Virus record (IMG/VR): IMGVR_UViG_3300027833_000078
Coordinates: 1-46,964 of that record
Origin: a virus
Strand: one strand, 5' to 3'
Length of the DNA stretch: 46,964 nt
Shown here: positions 1-44,552 of the stretch, one piece after another
Layout: every line of letters begins with the position of its first letter
How positions within the stretch are numbered: position 1 is the stretch's first letter
The notes under the pieces: model-generated
What the model saw: only the letters and a program-made list of their open reading frames with translations
Databases searched by the model: none
What the model was told of the DNA's origin: nothing
Translations under genes and position numbers: made by a program

Positions 1-331
1 CTTCCCATATACGATCTTGTACGTGTTGTGGGCAGGGTGTTTCTGCTTTGCCTAGTACATATTCATATACATTAATGTCTTTGTATTCATCAGGCATAAA
101 CCATTCACTTTGACATACACCGTCAAACGTCTTTTCGTCTACATCTAATGGAATATACTTTTGTAGTTTGTTAATACCTTGTTCTTCACATACATTATTA
201 AACTGATCTACATCATCGTTTTTGTCGCAAAGAACTACATGAACTTTATCTGCGTTACCAGAATATATCATGTCAATTAAGTCTCGATTAGAGAATCGTG
301 GAATACCTAAGTTATCTGTTTTCATTAGCAT
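1..331 (-). CDS. Conserved hypothetical early protein, 3' end outside window
   Basis: The frame stays open from an ATG at 331 to the left edge (110 codons visible), so the C-terminus is missing. The visible protein is soluble and acidic, contains the early motif LGIPRFSNRDL and a Cys-containing stretch, and shows no domain I recognise. A second in-frame ATG lies at 325. A sigma70-type promoter (361-366 / 338-343) would start transcription at about base 331, so the 331 ATG would be leaderless; neither ATG has a Shine-Dalgarno sequence. The gene lies just downstream of late structural genes but has an early promoter. Function unknown. Confidence 0.75.
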   Translation of the reverse strand, partial: MLMKTDNLGIPRFSNRDLIDMIYSGNADKVHVVLCDKNDDVDQFNNVCEEQGINKLQKYIPLDVDEKTFDGVCQSEWFMPDEYKDINVYEYVLGKAETPCPQHVQDRIWE

Positions 332-337
332 ACAGTT

Positions 338-366
338 ATTTTAACTGATATTGATTAAATTGTCAA
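338..366 (-). promoter_or_regulatory. Early sigma70-type promoter (TTGACA-N17-TAAAAT)
   Basis: On the minus strand TTGACA occupies 366-361 and TAAAAT 343-338, with 17 bases between. It lies inside the 3' end of the 77-aa gene and points at the partial gene at 1-331. With a standard distance of six bases after the -10 hexamer, the start site falls on the A of the ATG at 331. Confidence 0.7.
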
Positions 367-1188: not shown

Positions 1189-1196
1189 TATTTATC
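1189..1196 (-). promoter_or_regulatory. T4-type late promoter GATAAATA
   Basis: GATAAATA on the minus strand, matching the T4 late -10 element TATAAATA except for the first base. The expected start (six bases after the box) is about 1183, leaving a leader of about 13 bases that includes a GGAG ribosome site for the 198-aa gene. Confidence 0.75.
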
Positions 1197-5310: not shown

Positions 5311-5318
5311 GATAAATA
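5311..5318 (+). promoter_or_regulatory. Late promoter GATAAATA (plus member of divergent pair)
   Basis: GATAAATA on the plus strand, with an expected start at about 5324 and a 14-base leader that carries AAGGAG before the ATG at 5338. It is the mirror image of the box at 5297-5304. Confidence 0.75.
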
Positions 5319-22541: not shown

Positions 22542-22549
22542 TATTTATC
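22542..22549 (-). promoter_or_regulatory. Late promoter GATAAATA inside the end of the 49-aa gene
   Basis: GATAAATA on the minus strand, with an expected leader of about 15 bases before the 1113-aa gene. The TAA stop of the 49-aa gene (22545-22547) lies within the box. Confidence 0.75.
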
Positions 22550-22694: not shown

Positions 22695-25600
22695 TATGTT
22701 CTTCCTACTACTACTTCAACAATGCCTTCTCCAGCATCGTCTTTGGTGCCTACAGCCTTACCAATAACAGTACCAACAGTTGGCGTGTTATTAACAACAG
22801 CATATCCTCTTAACCCACTTGATACAAGTAAGTCGCCTTTTGCTACTTTACCAATTACCTTACAAGGTACACGCCCTTGTAGTGCAATACATGTTGCAAT
22901 GCCTGGACAATCTTGGTTCATAACAAACGCTGGCTCAGCACTTACAACACCAGCAACTCTATGATCAAGGTGTATGTTTGTTGTAGTAACTTCACTGTCA
23001 CCACCAAATACTAATACAGTACCAACTTCATACTCTGTGTCTGCTGAATACATCTCAGCCAAGTCAGCGTAGGTTGATTGTAGTTTAGAACCACTTGACA
23101 AACTCCAGTCACCTGTAATAGTACCTGTTGTTGCTGCGGCTCCTGTTGATATAGTTCTTACTGTAAGTGTATCAGTAGTTTCTATAGTTACGCCACCAGT
23201 AAATGTTTTTAATCCAGCAATACTTTGATTGCCTGTTGTGTAAACTCCATTAGTAACTGATCCAGCATTACCGGTAATATCACCTGTTGCCGTTCCGGTC
23301 CATTCAATATCATCGTTTACATAAACTTTACCTGTTCCGTTTGCACTTAGTGTTAAATTAGTATCAGTAGTAATACTCGTAATATCATTGCTATCAATAA
23401 TAACGCCACCTACAGTTAAACTTGTATCAATGACAACATCTTTAAAGTAACCATTTTTGAATTTTAAGTTTGCATCACCTAAATTAACACTGTTGTCGTC
23501 TTCTGGTGTAATTGCAAGTGTATCAACAGTACTGTTGCCTGTAGTATCTCGCATACCAAAAGTTATAGCTTTTTGCGTAGTGCCGTTTGATACAATAATA
23601 GCAACATCACCAGCGACTGCTTTACCACTGTATGCACCTATCGCAATACCTGCTGATGTATCACCTTTTTCGTTTTGTGCTTCAATGAAGTTAGTATAAG
23701 TCCATTGTGATGCTACAAACGGTGTTACTGTTGTGCCAGCAGGGTTGACTTGAGCTGTATCAAATGCTGTGTCAGCAGCCGCATGTAATGTGCTTCTATC
23801 AAATATATCTGGATCAGTGCCTACATCAGTACCGTCTGGATCTTTAAGATCACCAATATTTAAGTTACCAAATACAGTTGTGTATGCTGCAGTAGTTGCA
23901 TCACCACCTGATGCTTGTATACTCTTGCCGCCCTGTATTGATTGAAGTGTAAGTATGCCGGTTGAACCAGTGCCAATTTGTGTTAGTACAGTATTGTTGT
24001 TAAGTGCAAATCCTTGAGCATCAATAATACCAGCAGCCGTTGTTTTTACAAATGCATTTACTTCACCAGTTGTTGTGTCGTTAACTACTAGATATGTTTC
24101 AGATCCTACTGTCTCAAGTGTTCTAGTCAACACACCAGTTGCTTGTGTTGTTGCAAAGTCAGTGTGTTGTATGCCTTGACCTTCGTCAACTACTGTAGTA
24201 AATGCAACTTCTGCAACGTTTGCTTCTGCACTTGTTGAGTTACCTAGTACAGTGTCTGCAGCAATTTGCTCTAGTTTTGATTTAGGTATACCGTTGTCTT
24301 TGAGTTCAACGTGTCCTCTAGTAACTTTAAAGTTAGCACCGTCAAATGCTGATAAACCTAGTTTTGCTTGGTTAGTTGCATAACTATTATCGTCTACTAG
24401 ATCTTTAACAACAATGTTGCTTTGTGATCTTTTAACAGTACCGCCACCAGTAACGTTTGGAAGGCTTGCGTTTGCTGTAAACACTGTGCCTGCTGTACTA
24501 GCACTTGCACCAAATGCAGTTTCAAAGTTTGTACTGCCTTGTACAACAATAGTATATGTTTCGCCTAGTACAACTTCCGTTGCCGGAATAGTAATTAAAC
24601 TAGTTTGTGCTGTCACAAAAGTATCAGCTTCTTGCATGTTTAACTTGCTTTGTACAATAGCTGCTGTTGGATTTACATCTTGGTTAATAATTACTTCATC
24701 GTTGATCTGCATATCAAAGTATGCTGTTGGTCTATCTGGGTCTGCATTTCCTGCATCATCATCATTAATTAAACGTCTTGTTGTAAATGCAATATCACTT
24801 ACAGGTGTACCTGTGTTAAATGGTTCTTCACCAATGTTAATAATTTCTTGGAATGGCCCATTAATATATTTTGCATTACCGTCAACAGCGCCGCCGCCAT
24901 CTGGTCTTGCGTACACATCCGGTGCTGCAGATTTTAAGCCTTCTAGTGTACTACCTGAGAAGTTTAAGTTAAATTCAGTTAACGTAGCAATGTCTGGACC
25001 CTTAGTAAAGTAGATTACAGTAACGTCACCTAAGCCGTTATCATAAAAATCATATGTACCTGTAATAGTACCAAAGTTAGTTGTGCCTGCGCTGTTAGTT
25101 AATAGTTTACCTATTGTAAATCCGTTTGGTGAACCAATACTGTTACTGTCTAAGTATATAGAATATGTTCCGGTTAAGCCTAATACTTGATTAGCATCAC
25201 CTGTGCTTATTTCTACATCTCTAAGTGTCTTGAATTTTTTAACACCTTCTGATCTACTGTCTACATAGTCTTTGTTTACAGCGGTTGTACCTGCTGTAAG
25301 TGCAAGGTCTACTGGAGCAATACCAAGTATTGTGTTTTGGTTTGCTTGTAGATCACCTGTTAGTGGAACACTACCGTTTTGCTGTAGTACACTTGGTCCT
25401 AATGGATTAGTTACAGCATTACCTTGTTGATCGTAACCTAAACGTCTACTTACATACCCTCTGACAGCACTTTCAACTGGAACTGAGTCATTAGCATTAT
25501 CACTCATTGCACTGTCTGTTGAGAACTCAGTAACAACAACACCACGTTTAAATCCAATACCGTCAACATCTGAAAGTGCAATACTTGCCGCAAATGTAAC

Positions 25601-28600
25601 TGTACCAGTACCTTGGTCAACTGTAAAGAATCTACCTACACGGAAGAAACCATCTTGGTCTGTACTTACAAAGAACACTCTACCTTTGTTACGTTCATTT
25701 ATTTCGTTTGTTTGAGTTGCTTCTCTAGCTGGGAAGCCTAAGATAACATTTGGATAGTTTGTTTGGTTAAATGACCCTGTACCAATATCTAAGAAGTCAT
25801 GTCCTGTTGCTCTACATGTACTAATTTGAATTGTAATCTTTGCAGGTGCACCATCTTGTAGACCAGCACGTAGTAAAATACCAGCGCCAAAGCCTTGTGT
25901 TACAGGTTGTGAAAGTCCTGAAGCAACCGCTGTTATGTTTGTTTCTTTAACTTCAACAACCGTTGGTACTATATTAATAAGTCCTGTAGCAAGGTCTGTC
26001 ATAGTTGTATATGACCCGCCTGCATCTATACTAATTTCTAGTGCGCCTGTTGTGTTAAATGCTACACCTGACCAATCATATAAGTCTAAAATTTGTTCAT
26101 TAGTTTGTTTAACTTTAACTTTACCAGTTGCACTTGTGTTACCTACTTGTCTAACAATTACTTGCCTTTCAGCTAGGTTAAAGAAGTTTTGTCTTAACCA
26201 ACTTGCCTTCTCATTAAGTGTTAGACTTGTTTCACTAACTTCTTTAATATCAACTACAGCATATGTATTTGATTCGTTAAAAACTGATTGTACATTATGT
26301 ACTCCACTTTCAATTTTGACTTCTCTATAGTTGTATACAATGTGCTTCTTACCTCTCCATGATATTACTTTAGGTAATTCATAGTTAATAGTATAATCGC
26401 GCCCAGTGTCATCAGCTGGTATATTTTGATACTGTGCATCAGTGTCAAAGTTATTGTTTATTCTAAAGATATCTTTAGATTCTGTTAATAAGTTAATAGC
26501 GATAGTAGTATCGCCTTGTGTGTTACCTAGTGTAGTTGAACTAGATGCAACACTAAGCGTTGCACCGGTTGTTGCTACATAACTATCTTCTACTAACAAT
26601 CCTACAAAGTCATATCCAGCATCAAATCCTGTAAGGGATTCGTCATCTTCTAATATATTACCAGCACTATTATTAACACCAAAACTTATTGATCTATAAG
26701 TATCAATTGGATCGTCATCAAAGTTTACAGCCGTACTTGGACGGATTGTTAAACTACCAACACTTTCAATATCTCTAAATAAGTGTGTTGCATTGTTTCT
26801 AATATCAACTGGTTTGTTGATTGGAATCTCATCAAGTAATCCGTCATTATCAAATGAGTCACTTGATGTGCTAAAGTTTAATTTATATACTTGGCCATCT
26901 CTATCCGGAGTGTATCCTGCAATACTGTTGATTGAACCAGTTATTGACATTCTTCGAATACTACCAGTCTGTAAACCATTATCTACATTTATTGTACTTC
27001 TATTAATCTCAGTAACTGTTACAGTTGCGTCATTAGCCGTACTAGTACCTCCTAACTGTGTACCTACTACAGTAAATGTATCACCAATTTTATAATGATC
27101 TCCACTCTCTGTACCAAATATGTCTACACTGTATATGCCGCCATTTTTATTTGCTTTAGAAATAACAATTTTTGCTTGAGTTGATTCGCTTACTGGTTCT
27201 AATTCATTGTTACCGATAATGCCGTTAACATTAGTAGTTCTTGCTGTCGGATTGTATGTGTATTCTGTGTTGTCGATTGAATACCCGTCAACAAGAATAC
27301 CATTCATTTTTTGAATGTTTGCTAGTTCATAACGTGCAATTCTATTAAGAGGTGTGCTGCCATCATCGTGATAGTAATCAAGTTCGCCTTTGTTACTTGG
27401 AATATGTTCTAAGTCATAAACATGTAGACTTAATTGTTCATCAAGGTTAGTATAACCTGTTGTGTCAACTTCTTCAACATCTGCGCCACTATCAACTGTG
27501 TTTACAAATACACTCATGCCGTTTGACCAACTACCTGAAGTTCCGCTAAGGTAAATCTTTTTACCTACTGATGCAAATACTGATACACCACTAGCACTTG
27601 GTGTTGAACTTGCGTTTGCAATAGCGGCACCTGCTGCTACAGTTACGTTTTGATCTAACTCTATCACAGTTACTGCTGAGAATGTCTTAGCACTTTGCGT
27701 CATGTCGTCTTTTAGTACAACATCATCTGGTACTTCATTAGGATCACTACCTTCAGCAACAAGACCGTAAACACCGTTTGCATTTGAGCCGTTTAATGAT
27801 CTAATTTGACCACCATTGCCTGCATAGTATGCTGTGTGACAGTAGTATGTAAACATACTAACCATCTCTGACAAGCCGCCGTTAATAGTAACAAGACCAT
27901 AGCCTAAGTCATTAACTTGTGTAAAGTCATTACCTAGTTGTGATCTGTTACCAGCTGTTTGTAATGTAACACTGAAGCCGCCAGCCGGTATTGGTAATTC
28001 AATAGTGTCCCAACCTACATTTACAGTTGCATCAACGTCACTTACTGGACCTGATGTCGAGTCAAGAATTAATCTTGCAGTTGGTGCAAGTAATCCACCG
28101 TCATTATAATCTGTAACATCGTTTACTTGATATCTAATACCATTAATATAAAATGGTGCTGGAGTTTGCGGCTTTCTAATTGATAAACCGCTTCCTGGGT
28201 CTGCTGTAATTAACAATTCATAACCGTTGCCTTCTACAGAAGTTACCTTAACTGGAGTGTTAGCACAGAATGCATCGACTAACATACCGCCTCTAAACGC
28301 TTGTCTGTTTAGCGATTGTGAAAAACTTGAACCTGTTTGTATGTATGGTGACTTAGTAAGTATTTGCCCTGTTGGGTCAAGCACACACATAAAGCCGCCG
28401 TGTCCTTGTACGGTCATATTACGTAAGATAGTAGCATCATTCATTAAGAATGCATCTAGTTGATTTGAACGTTTTGCAGGGTTCCAATCATCGTTTGGAT
28501 CACTATCGTTACCCCATTTAACCAATTCAAACATATCATAAAGTAGGTTACCGTTTCCTGCTACAGTTGTACCACCTGTAAGGTTAGCATTAATATACTG

Positions 28601-31561
28601 AGTAGGATGATTAGCACCTTTAAATGCTGTGTATAGTGAATTGTCATACACTGAGTTTATAACAACATTTTGTATTACGTCTGCTGCTGCAGATATACTT
28701 TGGAATCTTGGTGTTGCTTCGTTTGGAAAGTTTAGTCCGTCAAAGAATATTGATCCTTGTGCATGTAATACGTTAATGCTCTTGCCTTCACGCAAGTCTG
28801 TAGCAATAGCATCTATTAAACTGCCAATTGTTCTTCTATATCTATCTTGTGCGCTAGTATTCCAATCTAAACTATCATAACCAGTTAGGTTAGCATTTTC
28901 AGCATAAGTTATGTATGCTATATTTTCTTCAATAATAAACTGTTTGTTCTTTTCAATTAAAATAGCTGCATCAATATAATTACCCGGGTTAGTAATAGTT
29001 AAATTACCACCGTTGTCAACATTCTTGGGTATTGATGGATTGTAAAGATAATGTCTTCCAAAGAAGCCGTCTGTTTCACCAGACAATGGATTAACGTATG
29101 CTTCACCTTCTGTTGGTAAGTTAGGATCTGCTACACCAGTAATACTATCGTTTCCACCGGTAAGTCCGTCAAATTCTTTATCTCTATAAAAATATGAAGT
29201 AGCCCACGGTGATTGTGATACTTGAGGTTTTGGTCTAATAATAACTCGTCTAAATTCGTCACCAACTAACGAAACGTTAGCAGGTACTTTAATAGGATAG
29301 TCTTCAAAATATTGACCTGTTTCAATTTTAACAGTAATTTGTCTGTTATTAACAATATTACCCATTTCAAGTTGTTCACCAATAGTAAACTCTTGTGCTG
29401 AAAGAAGTTGTAGTTCGCCTAAGTCATTTGTCGAACCAGGATTATTAACATTGTCATCGCCTGGGAAGTATCTAATAATTTTACCAATGGCGCCACTTGT
29501 TTTACCTCTAATAACCTTACCAACTCTAAGGTCTCTGTTAGCAGGATCACCTTGATCAACTTTGCCCTGTGTTATACCGTTTACTGAGTTACTAAAAAAT
29601 AACTCGTATCTACTACCAGTTCTTTCTGTTGGAGCTGTAAATACACCGTCAGTAACAATATCACGCTGAACAGCTAAGTTTGCTGTAACACTACCTGCAT
29701 CGTCACTATCTGGTTGGTTAGCACCGTATGTAATTATATCTTGTGTATAGATTGTTTGTAAAGAGCTAAACGGAGTATTAACAACAACACTTGCTGTTAC
29801 AGTTCTTGCTCGTTCTATCAAGTGTGCGTATACGTCTTTTAATAAGCCGTTTTGTGATCTACCATACTCGTCGTTATAAAATTCAACACCAACTCTAACT
29901 GATAAGTTTTGTGCAAGTGTTCCTGCAACATGATCTAGTAATGCTGCTTTTATACCGTTACGCAAGTCTAATTCTAATGCTCTATTGTTAACAACTCTAT
30001 TTGTCCATGTAACATTAGTAGAACCTACTGTTGTAGTTGCTTTAGCTGTAATTTGTGCATCTTTCCATGCTTGAACTTCAGCAATAATATAATTTAAGTT
30101 TGACTCTACTAGTGTTTTAGTATTTGCTCTACTTCCTAATCCAGAACCTACAGCAAATCCTGTTTGTGTAACTTGTGAAAGTTCTACAACAGGCGGTTGA
30201 CCTTCAGTAACTTGACGTGAAGTAAATATATCCTGCATATACGGACCTGGTTCAAACGGCGATGCAATTTGTATTTGTTCTGCTTTACGTGCCGCCGCAC
30301 CAATTGTTCTATATGAGTATGCTAATGAACTACCTTCTTTGCCTGGAGGTGCTACACTTTGATCATCATTACCAACAACACTAACAAATATATTAGCACT
30401 TGATTCTGTTGACTGACTGTCAACATATAATTTTGTTACCGCTTGTAAATCTGTTAATCCTTGTGGAGTACCTGCGCCTGCAAGATCGCCTGGATGATCG
30501 TGTAATGTAAGTGGACCTTCCATTGTATCACCTTGTCTACGTGTGATAGCATCACGTGGTAGTACTTGGTGACTTAGGAAAAAGCCTTCAATGTCTATAT
30601 CATAAGCTGCATCAGTAATTGATAATGCAGCAGAGTCTGTAGTTGTTAAGTTATAACGTCTACTGTTTCTGTCTGTTAAGTCTTCTAGTAGTGCATCATT
30701 TTTATTTACAAAAAATCCTAGGTTATTAGAATCTAATACACCTATATAAACAGTATCACCATTTTGTATAGGTGTGTAAATAGGCAAGTTATTGTCATCA
30801 ACATCTATACTTGAAATAGTGTTGCCTGTTGAAGGATCTTGTCTTGACCAATTAAGCCCAGTTCCTGCAGTATTAAAAATAAATGCTGATCCATCTGAAC
30901 CTCGTGACAAACCGTGTGCAGGAACAAGTACAACACCTTGTGCGCCTACAATGTCTTGTACAGCATCAATATTTTTTGTATAAGCAATAGCATCAGTTGG
31001 TTCAGCTGGAACGTTGATTGTATCGCCTGGGTCTTGTCTAAGTATGTAATTTCTATCTGCAAACTTTTTATCAATTACAAGATCATCAGTAGTAAACGAA
31101 GTACCATGTACATTGTTAAAGTTATTAGCATCTGTTGTACTTGTGCCTACGTTAGCAATAGCAACGCCAGCTGCATTTAATGGTCCGCCAAGTACAGGCT
31201 TTGGATCTGATTGTACTGAAACAGCATTTAGTTTTAAAATTATTTTACCAGCTTCTGAAACACTTACACTAATTGTGTCAATCTCTGCAGGATTTTCATC
31301 ACTGTTTGAACCTAGTTTTCTTACTTCAATCCCAGTACCGTCTTGTTTTACTATTGGAAGGTAAGCATCGACACCGTCACCTTTAAATGGTGTTAAGCTA
31401 TCTGGTGTATCAGCAAGTAACGTAAAGGTAATTTGACCGCCTTTACCTACTACCGCATATATCTCTTGAAAGTTTTCGTTTACCTTACGAAACGACTCTC
31501 TAATACTATCACCGGTTCCGTCATTTCCTTCAATACCGATATCTACTTGTTGTCTTGCCAT
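22694..31561 (-). CDS. Giant virion structural/tail-fibre protein (2955 aa)
   Basis: The largest gene of the window. N-terminus: VDIGIEGNDGTGDSIRESF plus helix, the shared attachment-type module. Residues about 390-430 carry a YRTIGAAARKA start of a beta-helix-like region that continues to about 1100 with strand-turn patterns such as VPANVSLVGDEFRRVIIRP and ATILRNMTVQGHGG. Residues about 1910-2050 hold a block I recognise from giant marine T4-like structural proteins (DFLDIGTGSFNQTNYP, then STDQDGFFRVGRFFTVDQG, then GFKRGVVV). The last ~135 residues start with YADLAEMYSADTEYEVG, resembling C-terminal fibre domains that act as folding/cleavage modules (Peptidase_G2-like); this is tentative. 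GGAG lies 10 bases before the ATG. Confidence 0.85.
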   Translation of the reverse strand: MARQQVDIGIEGNDGTGDSIRESFRKVNENFQEIYAVVGKGGQITFTLLADTPDSLTPFKGDGVDAYLPIVKQDGTGIEVRKLGSNSDENPAEIDTISVSVSEAGKIILKLNAVSVQSDPKPVLGGPLNAAGVAIANVGTSTTDANNFNNVHGTSFTTDDLVIDKKFADRNYILRQDPGDTINVPAEPTDAIAYTKNIDAVQDIVGAQGVVLVPAHGLSRGSDGSAFIFNTAGTGLNWSRQDPSTGNTISSIDVDDNNLPIYTPIQNGDTVYIGVLDSNNLGFFVNKNDALLEDLTDRNSRRYNLTTTDSAALSITDAAYDIDIEGFFLSHQVLPRDAITRRQGDTMEGPLTLHDHPGDLAGAGTPQGLTDLQAVTKLYVDSQSTESSANIFVSVVGNDDQSVAPPGKEGSSLAYSYRTIGAAARKAEQIQIASPFEPGPYMQDIFTSRQVTEGQPPVVELSQVTQTGFAVGSGLGSRANTKTLVESNLNYIIAEVQAWKDAQITAKATTTVGSTNVTWTNRVVNNRALELDLRNGIKAALLDHVAGTLAQNLSVRVGVEFYNDEYGRSQNGLLKDVYAHLIERARTVTASVVVNTPFSSLQTIYTQDIITYGANQPDSDDAGSVTANLAVQRDIVTDGVFTAPTERTGSRYELFFSNSVNGITQGKVDQGDPANRDLRVGKVIRGKTSGAIGKIIRYFPGDDNVNNPGSTNDLGELQLLSAQEFTIGEQLEMGNIVNNRQITVKIETGQYFEDYPIKVPANVSLVGDEFRRVIIRPKPQVSQSPWATSYFYRDKEFDGLTGGNDSITGVADPNLPTEGEAYVNPLSGETDGFFGRHYLYNPSIPKNVDNGGNLTITNPGNYIDAAILIEKNKQFIIEENIAYITYAENANLTGYDSLDWNTSAQDRYRRTIGSLIDAIATDLREGKSINVLHAQGSIFFDGLNFPNEATPRFQSISAAADVIQNVVINSVYDNSLYTAFKGANHPTQYINANLTGGTTVAGNGNLLYDMFELVKWGNDSDPNDDWNPAKRSNQLDAFLMNDATILRNMTVQGHGGFMCVLDPTGQILTKSPYIQTGSSFSQSLNRQAFRGGMLVDAFCANTPVKVTSVEGNGYELLITADPGSGLSIRKPQTPAPFYINGIRYQVNDVTDYNDGGLLAPTARLILDSTSGPVSDVDATVNVGWDTIELPIPAGGFSVTLQTAGNRSQLGNDFTQVNDLGYGLVTINGGLSEMVSMFTYYCHTAYYAGNGGQIRSLNGSNANGVYGLVAEGSDPNEVPDDVVLKDDMTQSAKTFSAVTVIELDQNVTVAAGAAIANASSTPSASGVSVFASVGKKIYLSGTSGSWSNGMSVFVNTVDSGADVEEVDTTGYTNLDEQLSLHVYDLEHIPSNKGELDYYHDDGSTPLNRIARYELANIQKMNGILVDGYSIDNTEYTYNPTARTTNVNGIIGNNELEPVSESTQAKIVISKANKNGGIYSVDIFGTESGDHYKIGDTFTVVGTQLGGTSTANDATVTVTEINRSTINVDNGLQTGSIRRMSITGSINSIAGYTPDRDGQVYKLNFSTSSDSFDNDGLLDEIPINKPVDIRNNATHLFRDIESVGSLTIRPSTAVNFDDDPIDTYRSISFGVNNSAGNILEDDESLTGFDAGYDFVGLLVEDSYVATTGATLSVASSSTTLGNTQGDTTIAINLLTESKDIFRINNNFDTDAQYQNIPADDTGRDYTINYELPKVISWRGKKHIVYNYREVKIESGVHNVQSVFNESNTYAVVDIKEVSETSLTLNEKASWLRQNFFNLAERQVIVRQVGNTSATGKVKVKQTNEQILDLYDWSGVAFNTTGALEISIDAGGSYTTMTDLATGLINIVPTVVEVKETNITAVASGLSQPVTQGFGAGILLRAGLQDGAPAKITIQISTCRATGHDFLDIGTGSFNQTNYPNVILGFPAREATQTNEINERNKGRVFFVSTDQDGFFRVGRFFTVDQGTGTVTFAASIALSDVDGIGFKRGVVVTEFSTDSAMSDNANDSVPVESAVRGYVSRRLGYDQQGNAVTNPLGPSVLQQNGSVPLTGDLQANQNTILGIAPVDLALTAGTTAVNKDYVDSRSEGVKKFKTLRDVEISTGDANQVLGLTGTYSIYLDSNSIGSPNGFTIGKLLTNSAGTTNFGTITGTYDFYDNGLGDVTVIYFTKGPDIATLTEFNLNFSGSTLEGLKSAAPDVYARPDGGGAVDGNAKYINGPFQEIINIGEEPFNTGTPVSDIAFTTRRLINDDDAGNADPDRPTAYFDMQINDEVIINQDVNPTAAIVQSKLNMQEADTFVTAQTSLITIPATEVVLGETYTIVVQGSTNFETAFGASASTAGTVFTANASLPNVTGGGTVKRSQSNIVVKDLVDDNSYATNQAKLGLSAFDGANFKVTRGHVELKDNGIPKSKLEQIAADTVLGNSTSAEANVAEVAFTTVVDEGQGIQHTDFATTQATGVLTRTLETVGSETYLVVNDTTTGEVNAFVKTTAAGIIDAQGFALNNNTVLTQIGTGSTGILTLQSIQGGKSIQASGGDATTAAYTTVFGNLNIGDLKDPDGTDVGTDPDIFDRSTLHAAADTAFDTAQVNPAGTTVTPFVASQWTYTNFIEAQNEKGDTSAGIAIGAYSGKAVAGDVAIIVSNGTTQKAITFGMRDTTGNSTVDTLAITPEDDNSVNLGDANLKFKNGYFKDVVIDTSLTVGGVIIDSNDITSITTDTNLTLSANGTGKVYVNDDIEWTGTATGDITGNAGSVTNGVYTTGNQSIAGLKTFTGGVTIETTDTLTVRTISTGAAATTGTITGDWSLSSGSKLQSTYADLAEMYSADTEYEVGTVLVFGGDSEVTTTNIHLDHRVAGVVSAEPAFVMNQDCPGIATCIALQGRVPCKVIGKVAKGDLLVSSGLRGYAVVNNTPTVGTVIGKAVGTKDDAGEGIVEVVVGRT

Positions 31562-31562: not shown

Positions 31563-31937
31563 TTATTTTAGCTCCAAAATTTGTATATTGTCTTCTATGT
31601 TATCATTAAAATTTACACTTACGCCGCAGCCGCATGCTGATTGTGCATTAGGATTATTGATAACAAATTGAGTTTGGAATACGTCTCTTGAATAGTCAAT
31701 TTCACTACCGAACAAATACATTAAACTGTGTGCGCTTACTACTAAGTTGCCTTCACCTGTATCTATTACTTCGTCGTGTTCCTCAACGCCTTCTTTCTCA
31801 ACCATATCCCATTCGTATTCAAAACCAGCACATCCACCGCCTTTAAGCCCTAAATGTACAGCAAACTTCTTTGGCTCTACATTACATAATTCATTTACTT
31901 TGCTTTTGGCACTCTCTGTGAGACTTAATACGAACAT
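31563..31937 (-). CDS. iscA: IscA/HesB-family iron-sulfur carrier-like protein (124 aa)
   Basis: A-type iron-sulfur carrier fold with the three family cysteines: Cys36 in KGGGCAGFEY and Cys102/Cys104 in SACGCG, close to the C-terminus. In bacteria these proteins bind Fe or an Fe-S cluster and pass it to client enzymes. The frame stays open upstream to an ATG at 32036, but that would lie beyond the late promoter; the ATG at 31937 has AGGAG at the right distance, sits 13 bases after the expected transcription start and gives the normal family length. It is the first gene of the late transcript that continues into the 2955-aa structural gene. HesB/IscA-like genes are known in marine T4-like phages. 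Confidence 0.88.
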   Translation of the reverse strand: MFVLSLTESAKSKVNELCNVEPKKFAVHLGLKGGGCAGFEYEWDMVEKEGVEEHDEVIDTGEGNLVVSAHSLMYLFGSEIDYSRDVFQTQFVINNPNAQSACGCGVSVNFNDNIEDNIQILELK

Positions 31938-31956: not shown

Positions 31957-31964
31957 TATTTATC
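31957..31964 (-). promoter_or_regulatory. Late promoter GATAAATA for iscA and the giant fibre gene
   Basis: GATAAATA on the minus strand; expected start near 31951, 13 bases before the iscA ATG, with AGGAG in the leader. It is divergent from the box at 31988-31995, with 23 bases between the two boxes. Confidence 0.75.
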
Positions 31965-31987
31965 GAATCGTTTTATAATCCTAATGT

Positions 31988-31995
31988 AATAAATA
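31988..31995 (+). promoter_or_regulatory. Late promoter AATAAATA placed for a leaderless mRNA
   Basis: AATAAATA on the plus strand is followed by exactly five bases and then the ATG at 32001. By T4 late geometry (+1 six bases after the box) the A of the ATG is the first transcribed base. Confidence 0.6.
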
Positions 31996-32000
31996 TACTT

Positions 32001-32288
32001 ATGTTTATAAAGGAATTTGTAGTTCAAACCAGGCACGAGAGGCTCTCTAAGCTAGGTTTCTCACATTCTTACACACGTAGTAAAACATACGTATTGCTTC
32101 GTTGTGATAGTTGCGATGTTGAGTTTAATCGTCCAAGAGGTAAGATGGAGCCTAAACGGTTAAACAATAATTATTTTCATGTATGTAAAAATTGTGATGC
32201 AAAGAAATTTGCACAAAAAAAGGGAGTAGAACGCAAACAAGTTTGGAACATGAGTGCTAGTTCTGATCTCCCTATTAATAAACTTTAG
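32001..32288 (+). CDS. Small zinc-ribbon-like protein (95 aa)
   Basis: Two CxxC pairs, Cys35/Cys38 (RCDSCD) and Cys62/Cys65 (VCKNCDAKKFAQKKG), about 23 residues apart, suggest a zinc-ribbon or treble-clef fold as in small phage nucleic-acid-binding or HNH-related proteins; no HNH catalytic histidines are visible. Basic between the pairs. No other in-frame start exists upstream, and no Shine-Dalgarno precedes the ATG; the gene appears to be read from a leaderless late mRNA. It runs against the bulk of the neighbouring genes and overlaps the next gene tail-to-tail by 4 bases. Confidence 0.75.
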   Translation: MFIKEFVVQTRHERLSKLGFSHSYTRSKTYVLLRCDSCDVEFNRPRGKMEPKRLNNNYFHVCKNCDAKKFAQKKGVERKQVWNMSASSDLPINKL

Positions 32289-35212: not shown

Positions 35213-36012
35213 TTTTCTATCACCCACGGATCATGACAATGTTCTGGATTAGGATCGCCGTGGAATACACATACGCAACATTCTATTCTTGGTACAACGG
35301 ATTCAATATCTTTAAATTCACGCTGTCCTCTAATGCCGCCTGGCTTAAAGTCTTTAGTAGCTCTTACTTCCCACTTCCAACTTTGTGTCCAACTATCCGG
35401 ATACAACATTGCCGCTTTAGTTTTATATGTTATGTCGTACAAATAATCTTGATCACCAAAGAATAACTTTTGATACTTTACTGGATCTTTCTTATATGTT
35501 TCCCAAACAAAGTCAAGTTCACCTGTTTTAAATTTAACAACAGAGCTGTTGTATTTTTTATAACCGGGGCGCATTGCTCTTGTGTAGTCTTTTACTATAC
35601 ACCAATGATTAGGTTGCCATGTTAATAGTTTATCAACGTTGCTGCTTATAACAACATCTAAGTCCAAGTATAGTATTGTGCCTTTGATAGGCAAGTCTTT
35701 TGAAAACATGTATGGCTTGTTCCACCATCCAGGTAATCCTTTAGGTAAGTTTAGTATTTGTATGTCAGGATTAAGATCCATAGGATCATCAGTTAAACAT
35801 GCAAATTTGTAGTCAAGGGTACAGTTGCGTTTGATCATGTTATACAGTTTGTTAACATAATCACTAGAATATTTTGTGCCATGTTTCAGACACAAAATAT
35901 AATAGTCTTGTGGAAGCTGGCTTACGTGTTTAGCAGACTTTGCTTCTCTACGTTCTGCTTTTATTGCAAGCCATTCTTCTTTGGTATACTGACTCTTGTC
36001 TACCTTAGCCAT
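35203..36012 (-). CDS. Glycosyltransferase-like protein (269 aa)
   Basis: GT-A-type nucleotide-sugar glycosyltransferase. Residues 1-35 are a charged N-terminal extension; then ILCLKHGTKYSSDYVNKLY, ACLTDDP, GWWNKPYMF and the metal-binding D-x-D in TILYLDLDVVI. A later GDQDYLYD (acceptor side) and a His-rich end (CVFHGDPNPEHCHDPWV) match phage members of this family. It would transfer a sugar to an unknown acceptor (virion protein, host glycan or modified DNA). It overlaps queD by 8 bases and the HAD gene by about 10, in one early operon. Confidence 0.82.
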   Translation of the reverse strand: MAKVDKSQYTKEEWLAIKAERREAKSAKHVSQLPQDYYILCLKHGTKYSSDYVNKLYNMIKRNCTLDYKFACLTDDPMDLNPDIQILNLPKGLPGWWNKPYMFSKDLPIKGTILYLDLDVVISSNVDKLLTWQPNHWCIVKDYTRAMRPGYKKYNSSVVKFKTGELDFVWETYKKDPVKYQKLFFGDQDYLYDITYKTKAAMLYPDSWTQSWKWEVRATKDFKPGGIRGQREFKDIESVVPRIECCVCVFHGDPNPEHCHDPWVIENWQ

Positions 36013-36484
36013 CTACGTGTGACGTCTTTTGTACTGAGTATGGTGTATAGATAGCACTATTCGCGCCATGCTCTGCACACTCAGCTGATTCACACCAGCA
36101 ACGGCCATCACTAACTTCTCTAATAAGTTGATCAGCAAACTTCCAAGCATGGTATGCAAACTTTTCACAACCGACGCCGTCGAATGTTCTAATCTCTGCT
36201 AGACCTTTTTCTTCTAATGCTTTAAAAGTTTCTAATTCAGGATCAGCAATATCAATTGCTGTCTTATGATCAAAACTATCTTCTAACCAAGCCTTAAGAG
36301 GTTTCAGTCCTCCAAAGTCAACAGCCCAGTTTTTTTCATCTAGGTCACTACACCCAAATACAAATTTAAATTGTAAACTGTAACCGTGTAGTAAATGACA
36401 ATGCGAATGCATTGCTTTAGGTTGACGGAACACCGCTGATAATCCGATGTTGTGTCCGTATGTTTTAGTGCTGTAATAAGCCAT
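36005..36484 (-). CDS. queD: QueD-like 6-carboxy-tetrahydropterin synthase family protein (159 aa)
   Basis: T-fold pterin enzyme family; QueD makes 6-carboxy-tetrahydropterin from dihydroneopterin triphosphate, the first dedicated step towards preQ0 and queuosine or 7-deazaguanine DNA bases. Visible motifs: MHSHCHLLHGYS (25-36, zinc site region), WAVDFGGLK (53-61), FDHKTAI (71-77) and GCEKFAYH (105-112, catalytic Cys/Glu region). The usual early His is a Phe here (SAVFRQ) and HGH is HGY, so the metal ligands seem rearranged, as in a marine subfamily. AGGAGAG precedes the ATG. First gene of its early operon, with an unusually long leader. No QueC/E/F is in this window. Confidence 0.85.
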   Translation of the reverse strand: MAYYSTKTYGHNIGLSAVFRQPKAMHSHCHLLHGYSLQFKFVFGCSDLDEKNWAVDFGGLKPLKAWLEDSFDHKTAIDIADPELETFKALEEKGLAEIRTFDGVGCEKFAYHAWKFADQLIREVSDGRCWCESAECAEHGANSAIYTPYSVQKTSHVDG

Positions 36485-36552
36485 ATTCTCTCCTATAAGA
36501 TAACGGCGGAGTATTTAAAGAGGGTCGACGTAGTAAAGTCCTCTGTGTTAAT
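36485..36552 (-). promoter_or_regulatory. Structured 5' leader of queD, possible riboswitch
   Basis: The expected queD mRNA start (about 36552) leaves a 68-base leader; other early leaders here are 23-39 bases. Close to its 5' end AGAGG (36544-36540) can pair with CCTCT (36523-36519) around 16 bases, and the loop TTTA can pair with TAAA just after the stem, an H-type pseudoknot layout. PreQ1-I riboswitches begin with a similar AGAGG..CCUCU stem and tail, but the usual A-rich tail is not clear here, so this is a candidate only. Confidence 0.35.
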
Positions 36553-36558
36553 ATACTT

Positions 36559-36587
36559 ATTATACTATAAATTGTTTAAGGTGTCAA
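36559..36587 (-). promoter_or_regulatory. Early promoter TTGACA-N17-TATAAT for queD operon
   Basis: TTGACA at 36587-36582 and TATAAT at 36564-36559 on the minus strand, 17 bases apart. The -35 box lies in the last codons of the 193-aa gene. It would drive queD, the glycosyltransferase and the HAD gene. Confidence 0.8.
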
Positions 36588-37146
36588 GTGAAACATTTGG
36601 ATAATTCCAAGTTTCTTGTAATTTACTGTGTATGTTGTATATTACAAATTGCTTCTTAGGGTAAGACTCAAACACTTTACCTATTTGATGTATCCAGTAA
36701 CGAGGATCTACAGCACGTTTATCTGCTCTATCATAGTTTTTAGAATCTTTATAAACGTTATTAACAGTTGGTGTGTTACTGTACATATCAAAGCCAATCA
36801 AATGAACTGTTTCATCTTTGGCCTTTTGTGCGGCTACAAGAACAGCATATGGACCACTACCCCATTGAAACGGCTCGTCCCAGCGTTCATTACCTTTGTA
36901 GGGCAATTCAGGAAGTTGTCTTATGTTTTTGTATTTCTTGTATCTTGGGAACCAATCGTATCTAGTGTAGACTTTAGTATTAGTGTTTATCTTGTGTTCT
37001 AATGCTTCTTCAACCATTCGCTTGTCTACACATACAAGATGATCTACATCAAAGTCTCGCATAATTGCATTGCAACCAACTTTGGTTCCATACAAAGAAG
37101 AGATATCAACTCCGGATCGACTTTCACCGTTACCAAATACATACAT
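36565..37146 (-). CDS. Sialyltransferase/DUF115-like Rossmann protein (193 aa)
   Basis: The N-terminus VFGNGESRSGVDISSLYG followed by VGCNAIMRDF, and later SGPYAVLVAAQKAKDETVHLIGFDMYS, parallel the layout of GT42 sialyltransferases and DUF115-type enzymes: a GNGxS nucleotide loop, an (R/G)CN strand, and an S-G-x-x-A-x-x-A helix leading to I-G-F/I-D. It could use an activated sugar or a pterin; the activity is not established. No Shine-Dalgarno precedes the ATG; the sequence AGTAAATA-N5-ATG suggests a leaderless late-type mRNA. It follows the 158-aa gene by 8 bases. Confidence 0.7.
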   Translation of the reverse strand: MYVFGNGESRSGVDISSLYGTKVGCNAIMRDFDVDHLVCVDKRMVEEALEHKINTNTKVYTRYDWFPRYKKYKNIRQLPELPYKGNERWDEPFQWGSGPYAVLVAAQKAKDETVHLIGFDMYSNTPTVNNVYKDSKNYDRADKRAVDPRYWIHQIGKVFESYPKKQFVIYNIHSKLQETWNYPNVSLDTLNNL

Positions 37147-37151
37147 GTAGG

Positions 37152-37159
37152 TATTTACT
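37152..37159 (-). promoter_or_regulatory. Weak late-like box AGTAAATA before a leaderless start
   Basis: AGTAAATA on the minus strand is followed by five bases and the ATG at 37146. It deviates from NATAAATA at the second position and overlaps the stop codon of the upstream gene. It is listed because the spacing equals that of two better leaderless cases. Confidence 0.35.
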
Positions 37160-37631
37160 CTATAATAAGAACGATATCATCAAACATCTGGACTTTAGCT
37201 TTTGTAAAAAGCAGATATACGCAATCAAACTCACTGTATAAACTTACTTCATATACGCCAGCTGGCATATTTTCTGGTCTAGGTATGCCCCATTGATGAT
37301 CAACAACTCCTGTTGCATTACCAAGGTAGTCATCTGACCTCAAATATACTTTTTTATCAAAATCAAAATCAAATATCTCACCGGTTTCGTTATTAATTGC
37401 ATGTGAGTGTACTCTTGTCAGCACACATTTATGCTCACGACTGCCTTCTAAAATAAAATTAATTTGATCACCAGTTACTGGATTGTTTGTTACAGAAATA
37501 CCAGAATTGTTAAACACAAATGCATTAGTGAAACTTACATACATGACCCCTAGGACAATAAGTGCCGCCATACTTAATCCGCTAGTTACGTTAGTTGCCG
37601 CCTTTATTATTTTAAATGTATTATCCCTCAT
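37155..37631 (-). CDS. Membrane-anchored protein with beta-rich outer domain (158 aa)
   Basis: Residues about 17-40 form one hydrophobic segment (SMAALIVLGVMYVSFTNAFVF), probably an uncleaved anchor; the remaining 118 residues are a soluble, mostly beta domain with two cysteines (HKCVLTRV, FDCVYLLF) that could pair in the periplasm. AAGGAAAC precedes the ATG, which lies inside the end of the 103-aa gene (11-base overlap). With that two-segment partner it forms a membrane pair, which could act in lysis or superinfection exclusion; this is a guess from topology. Confidence 0.7.
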   Translation of the reverse strand: MRDNTFKIIKAATNVTSGLSMAALIVLGVMYVSFTNAFVFNNSGISVTNNPVTGDQINFILEGSREHKCVLTRVHSHAINNETGEIFDFDFDKKVYLRSDDYLGNATGVVDHQWGIPRPENMPAGVYEVSLYSEFDCVYLLFTKAKVQMFDDIVLIIE

Positions 37632-37932
37632 TTTTTAGTTTCCTTATGTCTTCTCTAACATCTGCGACTTCTTGGTCAACGTCAGTTAAGTTAGCACTTG
37701 CTCGAGCAAGTGTAGTTATTAGATATTTTATAGTAAAAATTGCCCACCACCACCAAGTAACAGCGGTAACCGCAAAGCCTATTAGTCCTACATAAAATGC
37801 ATATTCGATTTTTACTATCTCAAATATTGTTAGAAATAATGTTGTCAACAAGAACAACGTAGGGCTTATCCGTGCAAACAGATCCCATCTTTCGACTTGT
37901 TTTTTAATTTGTTGATTTTTAATGTTATCCAT
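37621..37932 (-). CDS. Two-segment membrane protein with C-terminal coiled coil (103 aa)
   Basis: Charged N-terminus (about 1-20), a hydrophobic segment near 22-42 (ISPTLFLLTTLFLTIFEIV), a second near 46-72 containing WWWWAIF, and a C-terminal helix (75-103, ADVREDIRKLKNEG) with heptad spacing. The layout is compatible with a holin or an inner-membrane partner, but no family was recognised. A possible weak promoter (TTTACC-N18-GATAAT) puts the start codon about at the first transcribed base, and no ribosome site is visible. Confidence 0.68.
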   Translation of the reverse strand: MDNIKNQQIKKQVERWDLFARISPTLFLLTTLFLTIFEIVKIEYAFYVGLIGFAVTAVTWWWWAIFTIKYLITTLARASANLTDVDQEVADVREDIRKLKNEG

Positions 37933-37981
37933 ACCGTATTATCAGCCCCCGCATATTGGTTGGTAAAGGTCTTTTAGTTAA

Positions 37982-39115
37982 TTATGAAGATATTTGTCCG
38001 AAAGGCTTCCATTCGCCCGGTGTACCTTCTCTAGTACATACCCAGCCAACATAACCAGTCGGTTTTGGATCTTCGTTCCACACAATATCGCCCTTCCGAT
38101 ATTGTCCTTCTACAGGTGTTCCAGAACCTGTTTGAAACTTTTTGTTTTCAAATTTTATAGGACCTGCAACAGAAAGACTAACGTCATCTGATACTTGATT
38201 AACTCCTACACCTAGTTTGCCGTGTATACTTACTTTAGCATCACTAGTATCTTTGTTGCCAAAGTTTACTTTGCCGTTGGCCGATACAACAATACGTGAA
38301 GTATCATCTGTAATCACATGCAAATCATGTGTAGTATACGTGCCCACTCTTACCTCGGGTTGGTCAACATCAATTATAAATTCTGAGTCAAAGCCCATAA
38401 CACCTACTGCACCATTTGGTGCTTCAGTTCCTAACCCTAGGCGGTCTGCATCTGCATTCCAAAATAGGTGTTGACTAAGTGTTAGATTGCCTTTGACTTT
38501 AAGATCATTAAGTACACCGACTTGTTTTAAACTACTTGTTTTAACGTCTGGTCCTAATGAGCTTTTGTCTATAACATAGTTACCGTTTACAAAGTATGCA
38601 GCATCAGCATGTAGGTCTACAGAATCGCTACTCCAAAGTCTATCTGGATTAGGTCTATATACTAGTTGCTTTGTAGTCTTGCCTTCTGCAAGCCAAAGTA
38701 GTCCTTTGTTATAGATGTTGCCATCTTTATCATTAAACTCTAATGGTCCTGAACGTTCATTGCGAACGTCTGCTGTTACTTCGTCTACATGTAGTTTCTT
38801 GGCATATACTTCGCCGTCTACATGTAAGTCTCCTGCTACATTAGTATTGCCTACAAGTGTTTCAACGTCTAACGTATCAGTTACTATTCCGTCATCATTT
38901 ATAAAAACAACTAGCCTGCTGGACTCGTCTTTGATGCCGGTACTTTTAAATTTTGATATTGTGCCGCCTTGGATTAAATCTCCACTAAGACTATTAAGTG
39001 CTAGTTTAGACAAATCAGGCGTGTTATCGATGCTTGATAAAGCATCAACAACTTCTGCTAAAATTGGTAGTCCTTCTACAGCTATACGGACTTTATTGGG
39101 ATCTAGTTGCTTCAT
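37982..39115 (-). CDS. Late tail-fibre-like protein (377 aa), outside the main structural cluster
   Basis: Fibre features: shaft repeats such as GDLHVDGEVYAKKLHVDEV and LKVKGNLTLSQHLFW (about 90-230), a region listing expected state (DRLGLGTEAPNGAVG), and a C-terminal module of about 45 residues with GDIVWNEDP, GYVGWVC and GTPGEWKPFG, a common tip or carbohydrate-binding end in phage fibres. The frame extends to a TTG at 39130, but the late promoter GATAAATA (39121-39128) overlaps that, so the ATG at 39115 is chosen; it lies exactly where transcription should begin. The gene is separated from the other fibre genes by early genes. Confidence 0.8.
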   Translation of the reverse strand: MKQLDPNKVRIAVEGLPILAEVVDALSSIDNTPDLSKLALNSLSGDLIQGGTISKFKSTGIKDESSRLVVFINDDGIVTDTLDVETLVGNTNVAGDLHVDGEVYAKKLHVDEVTADVRNERSGPLEFNDKDGNIYNKGLLWLAEGKTTKQLVYRPNPDRLWSSDSVDLHADAAYFVNGNYVIDKSSLGPDVKTSSLKQVGVLNDLKVKGNLTLSQHLFWNADADRLGLGTEAPNGAVGVMGFDSEFIIDVDQPEVRVGTYTTHDLHVITDDTSRIVVSANGKVNFGNKDTSDAKVSIHGKLGVGVNQVSDDVSLSVAGPIKFENKKFQTGSGTPVEGQYRKGDIVWNEDPKPTGYVGWVCTREGTPGEWKPFGQISS

Positions 39116-39120
39116 GTAAG

Positions 39121-39128
39121 TATTTATC
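39121..39128 (-). promoter_or_regulatory. Late promoter GATAAATA placed for a leaderless mRNA
   Basis: GATAAATA on the minus strand, then five bases, then the ATG at 39115. It overlaps the stop region of the upstream 433-aa gene. Expected +1 is the A of the ATG. Confidence 0.65.
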
Positions 39129-40428
39129 AAACAACTTTCAGAAGCACTGTCTCCGCATTTATACGACCATTAAGTTTTGTGTCTGTAGTCTTAATGTCGT
39201 CCATATACTTACGTAAGGCTACTTTACCAGCATTTTTAAACTCTTTAAGTTGCTCTGCAGGCTTCCGCATAGTCTTTTGTATACTTTCTTCTTCCAAGAA
39301 TCCTATAATTGTAGTACCTTTAACTTGAAGTCCGCTACCTGGTCGTTGCATTTTTTGCGGATCAGGATCTTTAGCAACATACTTGCCTATTTTACGTGTC
39401 TTAGTATTGAACACCCAAAGCTCGTTTGCGTATATGATGTCTGCAGGATTAATACTAACAAGTCCGAACTTATCATCTTGCTTCTTAAACTTGAGCTTTT
39501 GTACTAATTTTTCAGCACTGTACACTTTAGCCTTACGTGGCCTACGTGTTGCTTTTGCACTTTCAATAACCATGTCACATGATGTCATTATCTTTTCTAA
39601 TGCTTTGAGCAATAACGCCATTTGTTTCTTAGATCTATGATCGTAACCTTCTTTAAGTTGTGCCCACATATCAGCTTCTTGCTCATCCATCTTCTTTAGT
39701 TTTGCTGGTGTAGGCATATTGTGCCATTCAACTACTTCATCTATTTCTGCTTTATAGATGTCTTTAATTTTTCTAGCATGTGCTTGTGACACTTTCTCTT
39801 TAATAAAGTGTACATTAATATCTAAACTGTCTATTTTAAAATCGTCTGGATCATTAATAAATCCGTCTAGCCAAAGATCAATAGCTTCGCATGCCACATG
39901 AGCCTGCATCAGAATACGATCTTGAATCGTTAGTACTGGCTTTGCAAGAGTCTTTGTTTCTACTTCTTGTTCTTCTTTTTTCTCTGCTATTACTGTTTTA
40001 CCAATTTCAATACATTTAGCAATAGAGTTACGTAAGAATCTATCTACACCACAAGTTAGTTCTCCACTAGTGCCCGGCAAACTTAGCCAGTGATCTGCTT
40101 CTTTCTTGTTTAGTCTAGGTGCACCGTTGGTATCCATTCGTGCTACAATGCCTGCTGTAACACTTAACGCATTATTGGGTGCGGCTTTAACAGCCTTAAT
40201 ATCGTCTTTAGAATATTCATTGTCAGTCATCCACTTAGGAACGTTAGCATACAAGTCTACTGGCTTGAAATGCTCGTAGTACCAAGAGTGTACATACCGA
40301 CGATGTCTATGTAGTGCTTGACCTGTCCATTCTTCCCAGCCTTCCCAATCCGGCTCTTTAAGTTTGGCTCCTCGTTGTATACGTGGTGCGGCCCTAGGCT
40401 TCTTTCTTTTAGTTTTTGGCAATGCCAT
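39127..40428 (-). CDS. Conserved marine T4-like phage protein of unknown function (433 aa)
   Basis: A 433-residue soluble protein. The first 25 residues are strongly basic (MALPKTKRKKPRAAPRIQRG), suggesting nucleic-acid contact. The middle is helical and charged, with EEQEVETKTLAKPVLT and KATRRPRKAKVYSAEKLVQKL. No catalytic motif or cysteine cluster is seen. GGAGAAC and a good early promoter precede it, so it is made early. Its length and character match a hypothetical protein shared by many marine T4-like phages, but I cannot give a function. Confidence 0.8.
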   Translation of the reverse strand: MALPKTKRKKPRAAPRIQRGAKLKEPDWEGWEEWTGQALHRHRRYVHSWYYEHFKPVDLYANVPKWMTDNEYSKDDIKAVKAAPNNALSVTAGIVARMDTNGAPRLNKKEADHWLSLPGTSGELTCGVDRFLRNSIAKCIEIGKTVIAEKKEEQEVETKTLAKPVLTIQDRILMQAHVACEAIDLWLDGFINDPDDFKIDSLDINVHFIKEKVSQAHARKIKDIYKAEIDEVVEWHNMPTPAKLKKMDEQEADMWAQLKEGYDHRSKKQMALLLKALEKIMTSCDMVIESAKATRRPRKAKVYSAEKLVQKLKFKKQDDKFGLVSINPADIIYANELWVFNTKTRKIGKYVAKDPDPQKMQRPGSGLQVKGTTIIGFLEEESIQKTMRKPAEQLKEFKNAGKVALRKYMDDIKTTDTKLNGRINAETVLLKVV

Positions 40429-40457
40429 TTTTCTAGTTCTCCAAATGCTTTACAAAA

Positions 40458-40486
40458 AGTATATATGCTTTAACGCAAAAAGTCAA
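40458..40486 (-). promoter_or_regulatory. Early promoter TTGACT-N17-TATACT
   Basis: TTGACT at 40486-40481 and TATACT at 40463-40458 on the minus strand, 17 bases apart. Expected start about 40451, with a 23-base leader containing GGAGAAC before the ATG at 40428. Confidence 0.75.
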
Positions 40487-40719
40487 GTATTAATTAGTCT
40501 TAAATACGTTAAATGCTTGTCTTCAAACAGTCCTGTTACTTTTACTTTATATCCCATTGAGTAATCATCGGGGTAAATGTGGTATTTTAACTCATTACCG
40601 TGTTTCATTGCCCACTTGCCGTTTGGAGTCTGTTGCCATTCGTATATTGCGGGCGAGACGTAAAGGTCGGGGTCTTCCACATCCCCCATTGCAAAGGTGT
40701 GTAAGACATGCCGTTCCAT
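40483..40719 (-). CDS. Conserved hypothetical protein (78 aa)
   Basis: A 78-residue protein with HTFAMGDVEDPDLYVSPAIYEWQQT near the start and a Tyr/His-rich middle (GNELKYHIYPDDYSMGY), ending in a beta hairpin. The 'MGDVEDP' start followed by WQQT resembles small proteins common in T4-like phages with no assigned role. Its ATG overlaps the stop of the membrane-protein gene (TAATG). Its stop region contains the -35 of the next early promoter. Confidence 0.75.
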   Translation of the reverse strand: MERHVLHTFAMGDVEDPDLYVSPAIYEWQQTPNGKWAMKHGNELKYHIYPDDYSMGYKVKVTGLFEDKHLTYLRLINT

Positions 40720-40952
40720 TACTTAGATAAGTCGTCGATGAGTTTTTGTTGTTCGTCTTTGAAGTCTTGATAACGTTGACGAACGATGTCTACTGTAAAA
40801 TCAATAAACATAAATGCTGGAGCAATATAGAAGTACTCTGCTCCGATGGTAAATGAAGCTGCAAAGCCTAGTGCAAAATACGAAAGGTATCGTTTTGAAT
40901 ATCCTTCCATATCTGTAAAGTTCCATTTAAGGAAGTACATAATTTTTTTCAT
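40719..40952 (-). CDS. Small membrane protein (77 aa)
   Basis: Two hydrophobic stretches (about 24-40, LSYFALGFAASFTIG, and 42-58, FYIAPAFMFIDFTVDIV) with a charged C-terminal helix (RQRYQDFKDEQQKLIDDL). GGAGAG lies 5 bases before the ATG, and the start overlaps the ligase stop as ATGA, so it is coupled to ligase. Function unknown. Confidence 0.72.
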   Translation of the reverse strand: MKKIMYFLKWNFTDMEGYSKRYLSYFALGFAASFTIGAEYFYIAPAFMFIDFTVDIVRQRYQDFKDEQQKLIDDLSK

Positions 40953-44006: not shown

Positions 44007-44012
44007 ATTTAA

Positions 44013-44088: not shown

Positions 44089-44102
44089 GTTAACTACTTT
44101 AC

Positions 44103-44541: not shown

Positions 44542-44552
44542 CCGTGTAACTT

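Follow-up and report, generated by a model that had tools for sequence, protein, structure and literature searches.

What does it mean when the start codon of a phage gene falls on the very nucleotide at which its promoter is expected to begin transcription? This question is raised by the locus at 31988-32288 of the window, by which we mean the whole analysed stretch of DNA, the 46,964-base virus record IMGVR_UViG_3300027833_000078. In T4 late promoters the element lies at -13 to -6, and the expected +1 follows from it. The first-pass annotation had pointed to three late sites of the form TAAATA-N5-ATG without a Shine-Dalgarno (SD) sequence, and all three are present exactly at the positions that it gave: AATAAATA-TACTT-ATG at 31988-32003 (+), GATAAATA-CTTAC-ATG at 39128-39113 (-) and AGTAAATA-CCTAC-ATG at 37159-37144 (-). 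The NATAAATA -10 element is matched at 31988 and 39128, and it also stands ahead of gp2, gp25 and further virion genes in pelagiphages. The 37159 site is the weakest of the three, as had been noticed before; here the A of NATAAATA is absent and TAAATA only is found. The early gene at 331 had been described as likewise arranged, and it indeed carries TTGACA (366-361), a 17-nt spacer, TAAAAT (343-338), N6 and the ATG (331-329), which is by its motifs a near-consensus sigma-70-type promoter. A usable SD is absent at all three late sites and at the 331 early site. Permuted motifs of the same composition predict 0.1 chance matches at N4-5 in the window and reach a maximum of 1, against 2 observed with ATAAATA. 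The sites and their genes are the following:

31988..31995, plus strand: late-promoter element AATAAATA in the leaderless arrangement, predicted +1 at 32001
32001..32288, plus strand: 95-aa ORF with CxxC pairs, phrog_5104 (unknown function), predicted leaderless mRNA
39121..39128, minus strand: late-promoter element GATAAATA, predicted +1 at 39115
37982..39115, minus strand: 377-aa tail-fibre-like ORF, predicted leaderless, weakly matching families of short tail fibres and of virion structural proteins
37152..37159, minus strand: weak late-promoter element AGTAAATA, predicted +1 at 37146
36565..37146, minus strand: 193-aa ORF starting MYVFGNGESR, phrog_30607 (unknown function), predicted leaderless
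361..366, minus strand: -35 element TTGACA of the sigma-70-type early promoter, conserved in homologues
338..343, minus strand: -10 element TAAAAT, 17 nt from the -35 element and 6 nt before the ATG
2..331, minus strand: ORF running off the window, DNA polymerase family phrog_11127, predicted leaderless early mRNA

Two of the late elements overlap coding sequence. The element at 39121..39128 covers part of the TGA stop codon of the upstream gene (39129-39127), and the TAA of the element at 37152..37159 (37157-37155) is the stop codon of the upstream ORF. A Pfam search of the leaderless genes of the window gave no match, and a search with 36000-42300 found no DNA of a related cultured phage.

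The same window also holds a contrast class. Other NATAAATA sites lie at 5313 (+), 5302 (-), 1194 (-), 22547 (-), 31962 (-), 33508 (-) and 32888 (-), and the ATG follows 17-24 nt past these seven sites, in nearly all cases behind an SD of the AGGAG/AGGA type. The predicted leaders are about 12-19 nt long; the first-pass annotation had given SD-led leaders of 12-18 nt for the other late genes. Four of these promoters serve as examples:

31957..31964, minus strand: GATAAATA late promoter with SD leader for the divergent gene 31563-31937, an internal control of the leadered class
5311..5318, plus strand: GATAAATA late promoter with SD leader, N19 to the ATG at 5338, leadered class
1189..1196, minus strand: GATAAATA late promoter with SD leader, N18 to the ATG at 1170, leadered class
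22542..22549, minus strand: GATAAATA late promoter with leader, N21 to the ATG at 22520, leadered class

Comparison of the spacing across related marine T4-like phages, which the first-pass annotation had suggested, gave a fixed promoter-ATG gap among homologues and a bimodal one genome-wide. For the 32001 gene 80 relatives were fetched, giving 38 distinct upstream sequences, and in all 38 the gap from TAAATA (or TAAGTA) to the ATG is either 5 (34 sequences) or 4 (4 sequences). For the divergent partner promoter at these loci the gap varies between 11 and 52 and invariably contains an SD. Most of the 80 loci homologous to the 37146 gene retain TAAATA-N5-ATG with differing spacers (ATTTT, CTTGT, ATTAC, ATTGT and TATAT), and in a subset the element is lost and the gene abuts the upstream gene. 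Ahead of the 39115 tail-fibre-like gene GATAAATACTTACATG is retained in an identical arrangement at 14 of 14 homologous loci. The 17/6 spacing of the 331 gene recurs in 76 of 80 homologous loci, where the 6-nt spacer takes 16 different forms. Across the relatives of the window genes the spacing is constant while the letters of the spacer vary, it being understood that homologues within one family are not independent. Homologues that begin at later codons had been named beforehand as evidence against leaderless genes; instead, in the 32001, 37146 and 39115 families homology starts at residue 1 and the ATG itself is conserved. All homologues of the 32001 gene start at this same methionine, and the GNGESR motif, conserved at residues 5-10 of the 37146 family, fixes the start codon there. 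Upstream of the 32001 gene a longer block, TTTTATAATCTTAATGTAAATATAGTTATG (window 31970-32003), is strongly conserved in the relatives (loci L015-L094). Ahead of the late element it contains a TATAAT-like element and an ATG whose next triplet is TAA; the block may represent an overlapping promoter of the sigma-70 type, or else a start-stop element.

A count over 2.18 Mb of related loci, made by clustered families, then gave the distance between TAAATA and the ATG of ORFs with 60 codons or more. The numbers peak at 4-5, almost vanish between 6 and 15 and increase once more from 16 onward; control motifs in the same count are flat. For ATAAATA the distances are bimodal across 11 phage sequences. 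In the positive set 34 gene families fall at N4-6, 12 at N7-15 and 58 at N16-30, or 11.3, 1.3 and 3.9 per nt; the corresponding family numbers in the negative set, made up of T4, KVP40 and three cyanophages, are 2, 10 and 67 (Fisher p about 1e-7 for N4-6 against N7-30 between the two sets). GTG or TTG starts at N4-5 occur once in the positive set, and the leadered genes of these genomes seldom begin with them either.

The initiator region sets the two classes apart as well. The base before the ATG is T or C in 46 of 47 cases at N4-5, versus 59 of 113 leadered ones (p about 1e-9). In 78 of the 113 leadered late promoters of the positive set the sixth base after ATAAATA, where T4 leads one to expect the +1, is A, and the A of the ATG in the leaderless class sits at the same offset. 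Of the 51 leaderless genes one has an SD within the spacer, and of the 113 leadered ones 100 do; one N5 gene of phage HTVC008M, at 16007 (-), has an SD-like stretch further upstream. As features of the DNA, the two discrete spacings, their conservation, the loss of the SD and the pyrimidine/A initiator at the ATG can be regarded as established.

The early promoters of the lineage to which the window belongs show a similar picture. Promoters of the form TTGACA-N16-18-TATAAT-like have a second peak at N5-7 before the ATG, with few cases from N8 to N21. The early N5-7 class accounts for one case at most in T4, S-PM2, KVP40, Cr30 and phiM12; P-SSM2 has four cases at N6-7, and thus the early class is less clean outside the lineage of the window. 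The earlier proposal of a class of leaderless phage genes that includes early ones is supported by four comparative lines: the bimodal spacing with its 34 families, a gap that stays fixed in homologues whose spacer letters change, the pyrimidine/A initiator at the ATG, and the sigma-70 class.

Which phages share the arrangement was assessed on large contigs of the window's lineage and on the complete phages T4, KVP40, Syn9, S-PM2, P-SSM2, HTVC008M, Mosig, Melnitz, Cr30, phiM12 and phiM9. ATAAATA-N4-5-ATG occurs 5 times in contig G001, 3 times in each of G002, G003 and G009, 6 times in G005, 5 times in G006 and twice in G008. HTVC008M has 9 cases, Melnitz 3, and Mosig 6, which taken alone is not above its permutation maximum of 7. 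P-SSM2 and S-PM2 have 1 each, and Syn9, T4, KVP40, Cr30, phiM12 and phiM9 have 0, the zeros of Cr30 and phiM9 being weak evidence because these phages have so few ATAAATA elements. The window's lineage has the leaderless late class, as do T4-like phages of Pelagibacter and Methylophilales, and by motif-to-ATG counts the class is essentially absent from T4, KVP40 and three cyanophages. It is not general to T4-like phages. Midpoint-rooted trees of DNA polymerase and clamp loader, some branches of which are long, place the lineage of the window far outside T4, the cyanophages, the pelagiphages and the alphaproteobacterial T4-likes, and in the polymerase tree HTVC008M, Mosig and Melnitz stand beside the cyanophages. 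From these positions two separated lineages carry the trait, and the cyanophages adjoining one of them lack it. A late sigma factor (phrog_12791, E 7e-79) is encoded by G002, a relative of the window, gp55 homologues are present in HTVC008M, Mosig and Melnitz, and the window fragment has no gp55. A simple explanation by alphaproteobacterial hosts was rejected: the N4-5 class is absent from Cr30, phiM12 and phiM9, though ATAAATA elements are few there, and Melnitz, with a Methylophilales host, contradicts it too. A search for the host through bacterial genomes gave one informative match, to a contig of a Neomarinimicrobiota MAG, and this contig may be a binned phage. A phage initiator tRNA was also discarded, as Met-CAT tRNAs are absent in HTVC008M, Mosig and Melnitz and present in S-PM2 and KVP40.

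In the pelagiphage HTVC008M the class includes genes for the DNA end protector gp2, head completion protein gp4, gp25, a tail completion protein, a tail-tube-associated baseplate protein, CsgF, a phytanoyl-CoA-dioxygenase-domain protein and a cyclase-like protein. Where inspected, the deposited CDS starts of HTVC008M are the predicted leaderless ATGs, including those of gp2 and gp4, and the annotators of Mosig likewise chose them. At KC465899.1 18916-18943 gp2 and gp4 are divergent, with start codons 26 bp apart and two late elements back to back, so that little space remains for two leaders. Relatives of gp2 in marine T4-like phages gave 50 distinct upstream regions; the gap is N5 in 40 of them and N6-8 in 9, and one region has no scored element; given these nine, the rule is better worded as a start at or within a few nt of the AUG. 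The sheath, portal and major capsid genes of HTVC008M (66853, 69453 and 74222) retain SD leaders. In this phage these three genes are SD-led and low-copy virion genes leaderless, as if the arrangement tuned protein stoichiometry.

Our explanation is that these phages employ a T4-type late promoter, NATAAATA, which would be served by a gp55-like sigma factor, in two configurations. In the first, the ATG lies 16-30 nt downstream behind an SD. In the second, the promoter would have moved up until +1 coincides with the A of the AUG, and ribosomes would recognise the resulting leaderless mRNA by its 5'-terminal AUG. The lineage of the window seems to apply the same device to sigma-70 early promoters, with N6 after the -10 element. 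Such messages might be translated by host ribosomes in their ordinary state or in a form altered during infection. We infer from the DNA comparisons that transcription starts at the A of the AUG and that translation is leaderless, and we consider this explanation very probable.

A co-directional ORF ends within 60 nt of, or overlaps, 36 of the 51 leaderless genes, and hence read-through mRNA could also supply many of them. One might then suppose that TAAATA merely provides the upstream stop codon and that terminating ribosomes re-initiate at the ATG on a polycistronic mRNA. The TAA of the motif is the upstream stop in 7 of 51 leaderless cases, the window site at 37157-37155 among them, but this is no commoner than in the leadered class (23 of 113), and 15 of the 51 have no co-directional ORF ending within 60 nt. 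The 32001 gene and the gp2 and gp4 genes of HTVC008M are divergent from their neighbours, and several gp2 homologues stand directly behind terminator-like T runs, which argues against read-through and coupling alike. Coupling predicts neither the pyrimidine at -1 nor the NATAAATA match, and we consider it very unlikely. Alternatively, the promoters could fire elsewhere or the ATGs be wrong, the real starts being later and SD-led and the N5 spacing a by-product. An AAGGA about 10 nt inside the 32001 ORF would suit this, and late promoters can occur within genes, but the homology from the first residue in three families, GNGESR from residue 5, the conserved ATG and the identical choice of the HTVC008M and Mosig annotators make it hardly credible.

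Two further ideas are compatible with leaderless late mRNAs and concern their cause. Genome compaction may have trimmed the leaders, with leaderless output being tolerated and perhaps suiting low-copy virion proteins. The class occurs in phages of streamlined hosts (Pelagibacter and Methylophilales), and in HTVC008M it is the major capsid, sheath and portal genes that are SD-led and gp2, gp4, gp25 and tail-tube-cap genes that are leaderless. Leaders of 1-10 nt, however, would also save space and are rare (12 families over nine positions versus 34 over three), and P-SSM2, a Prochlorococcus phage with a streamlined host too, has one N4-5 case only; we hold this as a tentative possibility. The other idea starts from the ribosomal protein bS21 (PF01165). 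By Pfam search it is present in HTVC008M, Mosig, Melnitz, G001, G005, G006 and G008, all of the leaderless class. It was not found in T4, KVP40, Syn9, S-PM2, P-SSM2, Cr30, phiM12 and phiM9, eight phages without the class, nor in the possibly incomplete contigs G002-G004, G007 and G009, nor in the window. Among the genomes examined bS21 is thus confined to leaderless-class phages, and two deep lineages share both traits. The HTVC008M bS21 is incorporated into E. coli 70S ribosomes and cuts GFP synthesis to about 5% (PMC6375957), and phage bS21 is co-transcribed late with structural genes (PMC9723584). The leaderless late mRNAs might be matched to ribosomes carrying phage bS21, SD-led initiation being lowered and a 5'-terminal AUG favoured late in infection. 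Yet with two lineages only, shared ancestry or host type could explain the co-occurrence, G002, G003 and G009 have the class and no detected bS21 (they may be incomplete), as has the window, strong SDs persist in front of most of the late genes in these phages, and the published impairment may reflect heterologous incompatibility; such matching seems rather unlikely. It is unlikely, too, that there is a second late translation channel in which leaderless mRNAs are preferentially decoded by phage-bS21 ribosomes while bS21 incorporation suppresses SD-led initiation. The co-occurrence is an association with two independent points and an unproven lead. For the earlier suggestion that leaderless translation is possibly favoured when ribosomes change during infection, this co-occurrence and the published data on bS21 are the only support. 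The word "leaderless" is absent from both bS21 papers (PMC6375957, PMC9723584); neither is evidence of leaderless translation, and the link is proposed here only.

Other features of the window may be recorded here. Five tRNA genes (Ala, Thr, Ser, Glu and Trp) at 43931-44872 (-) adjoin a 2OG-Fe(II) oxygenase gene (43327-43914). A single 2955-aa ORF at 22694-31561 (-) stands in a run of very large ORFs (1118, 794, 1147, 1579 and 1113 aa), which are probably tail or adhesion proteins. The ORF at 45399-46016 (-) was ruled out as a T4 prohead protease marker, as it is ClpP-like; its best hit among the matches listed (65.5% identity) is to Pseudomonas phage sp. 30-3, which is a large phage and has a bS21 gene too.

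If our explanation is true, abundant marine phages express an entire subset of their lytic late genes, virion genes among them, from leaderless mRNAs. The class would give annotators a route to late promoters in pelagimyophages, where their prediction by standard methods has been unsuccessful (PMC7029224), and it offers a concrete test of the purpose of phage-encoded bS21. Leaderless mRNA itself is already known; what appears new is the arrangement on T4-type late promoters, and full-text literature searches, with most subscription journals outside their scope, returned no paper describing leaderless T4-type late genes. The -10 element is the same as in known T4-type late promoters (TATAAATA, and NATAAATA in cyanophages, PMC2984593), and a late sigma factor of the same gp55 type is encoded by G002, the relative of the window mentioned above. 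In T4, KVP40 and three cyanophages, however, the element stands ahead of leadered genes, whereas here a discrete subset has the ATG at +1. A -10-like signal about 10-12 bp before the start codon is an established way to infer leaderless genes in bacteria (PMC3160421), and the logic is shared, namely a -10 element at a fixed distance from the AUG and no SD. Unlike those genes, the class described here uses a phage-specific late promoter besides sigma-70 early ones and is found in some T4-like lineages only. Leaderless mRNAs are recognised via their 5'-terminal AUG, and the lambda cI message is likewise a phage mRNA that begins at its AUG (PMC9031893). The cI case, however, is a single repressor mRNA, while the arrangement described here would extend to a set of lytic late genes.
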